Below are positions 26,655 through 30,785 of a DNA stretch of 36,530 nucleotides, in pieces. The stretch spans positions 1-36,530 of the forward strand of contig JACIWQ010000022.1 in NCBI GenBank assembly GCA_014360895.1, written 5' to 3'. Made by a program: the position numbers and the translations under genes. The notes beneath the pieces were generated by a model, which saw only the letters and a list, made by a program, of their open reading frames with translations, was not told the origin of the DNA and made no database searches. This stretch comes from Thermoflexales bacterium (GTDB taxonomy: Bacteria > Chloroflexota > Anaerolineae > B4-G1 > DUEL01). The first letter of the stretch is position 1. Every line of letters begins with the position of its first letter.

Positions 26655-26742
26655 GGGAATCCACCGCAAAGGACGCAAAGAGCGCAAAGGGAATCGGGAA
26701 CAGGCGTTTGTTCTTTACGTCCTTTGCGCTCTTTGCGGTTCA
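26655..26742. repeat. Inverted pair of CGCAAAGAGCGCAAAGG phrases
   Basis: Left copy CCGCAAAGGACGCAAAGAGC followed by GCAAAGG, right copy CCTTTGCGCTCTTTGCGG. The pair could form a long hairpin of about 17 bp with a 35-nt loop. A third version (CCCTTTGCGTTCTTTGCGG) lies near 30.65 kb. Confidence 0.65.
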
Positions 26743-26806
26743 AAATGAGCCGCCGCTGGGCATCAACGCCGGGGAGAAACGGCCCAACGCGACCAGGGAG
26801 AAAACT

Positions 26807-27065: not shown

Positions 27066-27314
27066 TTACCATTCCTCTTCTTCGTCTTCCAGGTCCTCGT
27101 CAAAGAGGTCCTCTTCCTCCCATTCCTCCTCTTCTTCCCACTCCTCCAGTTCCTCTTCCTCCAGGTCTTCGTAGTCAAAGACGTATTCCAGTTCCAGCGG
27201 ATTCAGGCTGACGACCTCCAGGAGGGCCCCGCATTCCTCGCAGTACAGGCGGTCGTAGAGAGCGACGTCCGGCGGGATGGGAAGAATGGTGTTGCATTCT
27301 GGACAGCGTACCAT
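27066..27314 (-). CDS. LysW-like zinc ribbon with extended acidic Glu/Trp tail
   Basis: The first 45 residues match LysW, the amino-group carrier of the LysW-dependent lysine/arginine pathway: MVRCPECNTILPIP, then CEECGALLEVVSLNPLELE. Both CxxC pairs are present. LysW proteins are about 54 residues and end EDWGE, the final Glu being the attachment point. This protein is 82 residues; after the ribbon it has a run of acidic residues with Trp repeats (ELEEW, EEEEEW) and ends in EEEEW. The terminal GE is absent and the last residue is Trp. No LysX ligase gene is in the window. It may be a degenerate or repurposed carrier. GGAGG sits 5 nt before the ATG, and a good promoter lies upstream. It diverges from rpsB. 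Confidence 0.8.
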   Translation of the reverse strand: MVRCPECNTILPIPPDVALYDRLYCEECGALLEVVSLNPLELEYVFDYEDLEEEELEEWEEEEEWEEEDLFDEDLEDEEEEW

Positions 27315-27389
27315 TTTTCCTCCTTTAAAGCGGCCTGAGTATGAACCCGCCCGAGGGGCGAACCGCAGCCACTGACTCCGACCGGCTTT

Positions 27390-27595: not shown

Positions 27596-28522
27596 ATGGC
27601 CGTTACCACGATGCGCACGCTGCTGGAAACCGGCGTGCACTTTGGACATCGCACCCGGCGCTGGAACCCGAAGATGCGACCGTACATCTTCACCGAGCGC
27701 AACGGGGTGCACATCATTGACCTTCAGAAGACCCTCCATGCCCTGGAGCAGGCCGTCCAAGTGACCCGGGAGACGGTCGCCAACGGCGGAACCATTCTCT
27801 TTGTTGGCACCAAACAGCAGGCCCAGGAGGTCATCGCTCACGAGGCCCAGCGGTGCGGTATGCCCTACGTCAACCAGCGCTGGCTGGGCGGCACCCTCAC
27901 CAACTGGCGCACCATCCGCCGCCGGATTGAATACCTGATAGACCTGGAGGAGCGCCAGGCCCGGGGGGAGTTTGAGGGGTTGACCAAACTGGAAGCGCTG
28001 AAACTCCAGCGAGAAATCGCGCGACTCAACGCCCGCCTGGGCGGCATCAAGCAGATGCGCCAACTTCCCAACCTCCTTTACGTCGTGGATGTGCACCGGG
28101 AAGCGACGGCGGTCAAGGAAGCCAACGTCCTGGACATCCCGGTCATCGCCATTGTGGATACCAACTGCGACCCCGACCCCATAGACTACGTCATCCCGGG
28201 CAACGACGATGCCATTCGCGCCATCCGCCTCATCACCGGCCTCATCGCCGACGCCGTCCTGGAGGGGCTGGCCCTGCGCAAGGAAATGGCTCCTGAAGAG
28301 GAAATCCCGGAGGAGACCGAGCGGTATCTCAGCGCGGCCACCCTTGCCCGCATCCGCGAGGGGCGCTTTGAAGAGGAATGGCTGCCAGAGGGGGGCGAAG
28401 AGTACGAAGCCTTTGAGCCAGAGGAAGAGTATCCGGCAGAGGGCGAAAGGGAATTTGAGTACGGAAAAGAGTTTGAGGAAGAAGAGTACGAAGCCGAAGA
28501 GAACGACTTTGAAGAAGAATAA
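27596..28522 (+). CDS. rpsB: 30S ribosomal protein S2 with acidic C-terminal extension
   Basis: S2 is a small-subunit protein near the head-body junction of the ribosome. The 308-residue protein has the family start ([22 protein letters not shown]), [10 protein letters not shown], and the signature around [28 protein letters not shown]. The core ends near residue 225. The last 80 residues form an acid-rich tail ([17 protein letters not shown] and similar) that exceeds the usual S2 length of roughly 230-260. AGGAGGTGA precedes the ATG by a few bases. It leads the operon with tsf, 18 nt downstream. The tail is Glu/Tyr/Phe-rich and likely disordered. Confidence 0.97.
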
Positions 28523-29995: not shown

Positions 29996-30553
29996 ATGAT
30001 CCGGGATTTGCTTCGCGAGGCGGAAGAGCGCATGAAAAAGACCCTGGAGGTCATGGAAGCGGATTTCCGGGCCATCCGCACCGGTCGGGCCAGCCCGGCC
30101 CTGGTGGAACGGGTGATGGTGGATTACTACGGTGTCCCCACTCCTCTCAATCAACTGGCCGTCATCAGCGCGCCGGAACCCCAACTGCTCACCATCCGCC
30201 CCTACGACCCCTCCTCGCTGGGAGATATAGAGCGGGCCATCCTGAAATCGGATCTGGGCCTCACTCCCTCCAACGATGGCCGCATCATCCGCCTGGTCAT
30301 CCCCCCACTGACAGAGCAGCGCCGGACCGAACTGGCGCGTATGGTCAGCCGACGGGTGGAGGAGGCCAAAGTGGCCCTGCGCAATATCCGTCGGGAAGCT
30401 CTGGACGACCTGCGGGAGTTTGAGAAGGAAAAGTTGATTTCGGAGGACGAATTCTACCAAGCCCGCGACGAACTCCAGGAACTGACCGATAAGTACACGG
30501 CGCGGGCGGAGGAAATCGGTCAGCGGAAGACCCGGGAAGTCATGGAAGTCTAA
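29996..30553 (+). CDS. frr: Ribosome recycling factor
   Basis: RRF splits post-termination ribosomes with EF-G. The 185-residue protein shows the standard order: MKKTLEVMEADFRAIRTGRASPALVERVMVDYYG in two parts near the N-terminus (residues 12-45), the contact strand QLAVISAPEPQLLTIRPYD, and the three-helix bundle closing with DEFYQARDELQELTDKYTAR. Length equals the family norm. AGGAGGAG precedes the ATG. The next gene, uppS, is about 230 nt on and has its own promoter. Confidence 0.97.
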   Translation: MIRDLLREAEERMKKTLEVMEADFRAIRTGRASPALVERVMVDYYGVPTPLNQLAVISAPEPQLLTIRPYDPSSLGDIERAILKSDLGLTPSNDGRIIRLVIPPLTEQRRTELARMVSRRVEEAKVALRNIRREALDDLREFEKEKLISEDEFYQARDELQELTDKYTARAEEIGQRKTREVMEV

Positions 30554-30665
30554 GGCAAGAGTGCGGGGATGCAAGAGCGCAAAAGCATAAGACACTCTTT
30601 CTCGCTTCCTGCATCCTGTATCTTGCTTCCTGAAACCTCTGCGCCCTTTGCGTTCTTTGCGGTTA
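30554..30665. repeat. Phrase-repeat cluster between frr and uppS
   Basis: Words GGGGATGCAAGAGCGCAAAAG, CTTCCTGCATCCTG, TCTTGCTTCCTG and CCCTTTGCGTTCTTTGCGG follow one another. They match phrases near 22.92 and 26.66 kb. No gene is seen. Confidence 0.6.
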
Positions 30666-30680
30666 AACTTATAAGTCTTT

Positions 30681-30709
30681 TTGCCGAAAAGGCAGAATAG
30701 TGGTATAAT
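30681..30709 (+). promoter_or_regulatory. Promoter of uppS
   Basis: TTGCCG (30681-30686), 17-bp spacer ending GTGG, TATAAT (30704-30709). It divides the rpsB operon: uppS and cdsA may be read separately. Confidence 0.75.
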
Positions 30710-30785
30710 ATTCCTGCACCTGGCACCTGTTGATTCACCGGCTTACCCGCATCGTTTCAGAGGCACTGTCTCCGATTTTGCCCCA

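Follow-up and report, generated by a model that had tools for sequence, protein, structure and literature searches.

The window, the whole 36,530-nucleotide stretch of DNA analyzed here, encodes a small protein in which a LysW-type zinc ribbon is joined to an acidic tail that ends in tryptophan. Because the EDWGE end of LysW is absent and a polyanionic tail stands in its place, the window protein is most likely no amino-acid carrier for lysine or arginine synthesis. There is good support for the loss of the carrier role, and it is highly probable that the protein is not loaded by LysX. We lean, at somewhat better than even confidence, toward a joint explanation in which the protein derives from LysW, is no carrier, and uses the acidic-aromatic tail beside its zinc ribbon to bind partner proteins.

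A LysW-type zinc ribbon with an acidic tail

The gene begins with an ATG at 27314, preceded by AAAGGAGG, and closes with a TAA at 27068–27066 of the minus strand; its features are collected in Table 1. The profile of the LysW globular domain, PF21344 (Zn_ribbon_LysW), matches residues 2–43 with 37.6 bits (cut-off 27, E = 1.7e-9), and the protein contains the four cysteines and the LysW core LEVVSLNPLxLE. The lysW equivalog TIGR01206 is not matched at E ≤ 1, and NF041070 scores 19.5 bits, below its cut-off of 75. AlphaFold2 predicts a LysW-like fold for the head (pLDDT ~85) and no resolved structure for the tail (pLDDT ~47–66). The closest relatives of solved structure are LysW chains, which make up all six best PDB matches of the model in Foldseek (TM 0.69–0.87 by target length). 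Profile and modeled fold thus bear out an earlier note, made from the sequence alone, that had called the zinc ribbon LysW-like.

Residues 47–82 read DYEDLEEEELEEWEEEEEWEEEDLFDEDLEDEEEEW, in which 27 of 36 residues (75%) are Asp or Glu. Trp occurs at positions 59, 65, and 82, the last of which forms the C-terminus in the sequence EEEEW. The terminal Glu of the carrier is the site of amino-acid attachment, EDWGE is recognized by the GSWGR motif of LysX, and the E54A substitution at the carrier end abolishes the function of haloarchaeal ArgW (PMC10433800). Both the EDWGE end and the acceptor Glu are absent from the window protein. The earlier note was right that the tail is rich in Glu and Asp, contains Trp, ends in Trp, and is missing the usual attachment Glu; its figure of about 35 additional residues was too high, the excess over the genome's own LysW being 28 residues (82 compared with 54).

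Table 1. Positions in the window of the acid-tailed LysW-like gene and its parts
Feature	Position	Strand	Evidence and remarks
Acid-tailed LysW-like gene, complete	27066..27314	(-)	82 aa, stop included; orthologues in six other genus genomes
LysW-type zinc-ribbon head, residues 1–46 (C4/C7/C25/C28)	27177..27314	(-)	PF21344 and predicted structure
Acidic tail, residues 47–82, plus TAA	27066..27176	(-)	Sequence; low model confidence
Shine-Dalgarno sequence AAAGGAGG	27319..27326	(-)	GGAGG core shortly before ATG, 7/7 genus members

Conservation and selection in the genus

Each of the six further genus genomes that were sampled (6/6) keeps an orthologue, with identities of 83–94%; named records among them include a Thermoflexus sp. 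and several Anaerolineae. The C-terminal Trp is kept in all seven members, the window included, and the GGAGG core lies shortly before the ATG in each of them. In the first 50 codons, nonsynonymous distances between genus pairs range from 0 to 0.07 and synonymous distances from 0.2 to saturation. Nonsynonymous distances in the tail (0.01–0.15) are mostly well below the synonymous ones, and changes in tail length are in-frame; the pair formed by the window and L199 has no such gap in the tail, over few sites. The head is under purifying selection, as is the tail in nearly all pairs. It is near certain that the acid-tailed protein is genuine and free of frameshifts. The earlier note had held that a simple frameshift or sequencing error would show in relatives whose same reading frame ends in the standard EDWGE; this refutation fails, since the relatives with EDWGE are encoded by genes of their own in these genomes.

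A canonical LysW system elsewhere in the genome

Contig C262 of the same genome encodes a 54-residue LysW that ends in EEDWGE and passes TIGR01206 with 77.3 bits against 53.2. This gene is followed by genes for two LysX proteins, ArgC/LysY, [LysW]-aminoadipate kinase (LysZ), a LysJ-type aminotransferase, [LysW]-lysine hydrolase (LysK), ArgG, and ArgH. Both LysX proteins match TIGR02144 with 330 bits each and contain the GSWGR motif; no other strong RimK-type gene was found in the genome. The earlier note had seen no LysX, LysZ, or LysY gene nearby. This holds for the window and not for the genome, in which two LysX, LysZ, ArgC/LysY, LysJ, and LysK are all encoded on C262; the search for lysX outside the window that it had proposed led to these two copies, which accompany the canonical LysW.

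Distribution across the order

In a set of 48 genomes from the order, RimK/LysX is present wherever EDWGE-type LysW occurs (22/22 genomes), and the lineage of the window protein, designated clade A, is found in 23; the presence sets were read by hand from search tables, and the co-occurrence counts ignore phylogeny. Six clade A genomes yield no match to RimK at E ≤ 1e-8. Such an absence may reflect an assembly gap in draft genomes, though among the six G437 is 100% complete and G444 90%. In gene content, the window lineage is independent of LysX.

A tree of 92 head domains over 45 columns, which is weak for deeper relations, places the window protein within a monophyletic clade A (support 98/98). 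Trp is the terminal residue in 17 of 23 clade A tails and not in the other six, though it accounts for 5.9% of tail residues (counts that ignore phylogeny). The terminal Trp is preceded by Glu in the window protein and by Lys, Arg, Asp, or Ala in relatives.

The earlier note's description of a repurposed protein is well supported by the missing acceptor Glu and EDWGE, the missing link to LysX, the occurrence of the lineage where RimK is not matched, and the canonical LysW that the genome encodes separately. Of its two readings, carrier or scaffold, the first is weakened and the second is conjectural.

Neighboring genes

The acid-tailed gene of the window is flanked by genes for a sortase and a 96-aa ORF and by rpsB; no LysX/RimK gene adjoins it. 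The OmpR-type regulator, KamA, or Ddl-like ligase genes that neighbor many members of a second acid-tailed group (described below) are likewise not found beside it. The rpsB gene was rejected as a functional partner: it is divergent, occurs only in the window and L098 among the genus loci read, and is absent from the 20-kb stretch L099. Across the genus, the sortase gene and the 96-aa ORF remain next to the acid-tailed gene, but they are convergent, and other genes take their place in the sister family, where PIN-TRAM protein, CysS, and RlmB genes flank the clade A gene on one side. The genome's own KamA homologue was also set aside; it lies on a different contig (C26) among other genes, and a close Ddl-like ligase is absent from the genome. 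No same-strand partner is conserved across clade A among the loci compared (genus and sister family), which would fit a stand-alone small factor.

Two further features of this region were seen. The rpsB product (window 27596–28522, plus strand, 308 aa) has a long Glu-rich C-terminus, another acidic end beside the acid-tailed gene. Inspection by eye revealed an inverted repeat at 26660–26745 around GCAAAGGACGCAAAGAGCGCAAAGG and its complement, and a similar stretch may lie near 30550–30740.

Acid-tailed LysW-like proteins in two phyla

The window protein is not the one-off that the earlier note had taken it for; it belongs to one clade among widespread acid-tailed LysW-like proteins. A second group of such proteins, which have no EDWGE and whose tails contain Trp, Tyr, or Phe, is found across the class. 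We refer to it as set B, a label of convenience, since it does not form one clade in the head-domain tree. The terminal residue is hydrophobic in 46% of set B tails, compared with 18% hydrophobic residues over whole tails (counts that ignore phylogeny). Many set B genes adjoin a gene for an OmpR-type regulator. At four loci (L164, L168, L185, and L195), the set B gene is directly followed by a KamA-type (lysine 2,3-aminomutase) gene and then by one or two genes for Ddl-like ATP-grasp ligases; at three more (L038, L178, and L184), it adjoins a Ddl-like ligase gene. Set B and clade A share the LysW-like head, the acidic aromatic tail, and the absence of EDWGE, but the regulator (often) and the KamA and ligase genes (sometimes) are neighbors of set B and not of clade A.

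The same division recurs in a second phylum, to which a Terriglobia record found in a single-protein scan of genome contigs belongs. There, RimK or LysY homologues flank 25 of 26 PF21344 loci whose products end in EDWG(E/Q) and none of 25 other PF21344 loci, within flanks of ~2 kb and with twenty loci picked non-randomly from the middle ranks of the match list. Twelve of these 25 other products have a C-terminal Trp, Tyr, or Phe.

A LysW-like domain can readily lead to a protein being annotated as an amino-acid carrier. Since many such proteins in two phyla have no carrier end and are encoded apart from the loading enzyme, pathway predictions that follow this annotation would go astray. The division offers a simple rule, EDWGE with a RimK neighbor versus an acidic tail without one, and it points to an unstudied protein family; we found no description of such acid-tailed LysW-like proteins in the open-access literature.

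Proposed role of the tail and alternative explanations

In the explanation that we favor, the head keeps the LysW zinc ribbon, as profile and modeled fold show, and in place of the end that LysX reads and loads stands a polyanionic, Trp-studded, probably disordered tail. By gene content, lysine and arginine synthesis is served by the separate C262 LysW and its LysX/Z/Y/J/K set. The acidic-aromatic tail may dock on basic, perhaps nucleic-acid-binding, surfaces, with the conserved terminal Trp as a putative end anchor. Protein binding through the tail is our best single guess for the window protein, one suggested by the composition and conservation of the tail. Metal binding and post-translational modification are other things of which acidic tails are capable.

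One such modification would make the protein a new kind of amino-acid acceptor, in which an ATP-grasp ligase distinct from LysX aminoacylates tail Glu residues or the C-terminal carboxylate; the product would be either a carrier similar to LysW or a scaffold bearing many modifications. We consider this unlikely as an account of the window protein, yet it draws on the set B loci, where acid-tailed genes adjoin KamA-type and Ddl-like ligase genes, and on the presence of the ligase in 18 of 23 set B genomes compared with 4 of 25 genomes without set B, counts that ignore phylogeny. These operons make tail aminoacylation by another ligase possible for set B. For the window protein it is unlikely because the close Ddl-like ligase is absent from the whole genus, in which only an ordinary homologue occurs (two members, with 36% and 34% identity). 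Moreover, clade A has no such neighbors and occurs in ten genomes without the close ligase.

A broader version of this idea is improbable in our estimate. It would have LysW-like zinc ribbons radiate in at least two phyla into tail-modified or tail-docking proteins. The set B tail would accept (beta-)lysine or other amino acids through Ddl-like ATP-grasp ligases, in a carrier or signaling system outside lysine and arginine synthesis, and the window protein would be a ligase-independent offshoot.

We give similarly low credence to a metal or cation buffer, a protein that would bind divalent cations through its acidic tail and serve to store or deliver zinc or another metal. A zinc-ribbon head and a tail that is three-quarters Asp and Glu would suit this role, but it does not account for the terminal Trp or for the other Trp residues that the tail has retained, and no metal transporter or regulator was identified beside the gene.

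Processing of the tail into an ordinary LysW is very unlikely. A carboxypeptidase would have to trim Trp82 and so expose for LysX the Glu that precedes it, and LysX is indeed encoded elsewhere in the genome; however, no DWG stands before that Glu, though it is part of the motif read by the GSWGR of LysX, residues other than Glu precede the terminal Trp in relatives, and clade A is kept in genomes that give no match to RimK. A decayed or frameshifted lysW copy, which has the missing EDWGE in its favor and nothing else, is ruled out by seven intact genus copies, strong purifying selection, and a conserved ribosome-binding site.

Relation to known proteins

With the amino-group carriers LysW and ArgW (TIGR01206; PDB 3WWL, 5K2M, and 3VPB), the window protein shares the four-Cys zinc-ribbon fold, acidic character, and the core LEVVSLNPLxLE. 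It differs from them in its end, its greater length, its separation from LysX, and its occurrence where RimK is not found. The acidic tips of SSB-type proteins are polyanionic with a hydrophobic C-terminus. The tail of the window protein resembles them in combining a polyanionic stretch with a bulky hydrophobic end, whereas SSB has an OB fold and the window protein a zinc ribbon; we claim no homology.

Several variants of these arrangements were encountered among the loci compared. An acid-tailed gene also lies beside KamA-type and/or Ddl-like ligase genes at L132–L134 and L136. An OmpR-type regulator is often present at these and the other KamA/Ddl-like loci, with a receiver that, judged by eye, seemingly lacks the usual phospho-acceptor Asp. 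One LysW-like protein (L235) ends in EEDWTE, one residue off the carrier motif, and has no RimK/LysY homologue in the fetched flank. Two others (L045 and L047) end in EEEEK or DEEEK and have neither EDWGE nor a long acidic tail. Other genomes of the phylum encode two or three tandem copies of canonical, EDWGE-type LysW (L023, L026, and L031).
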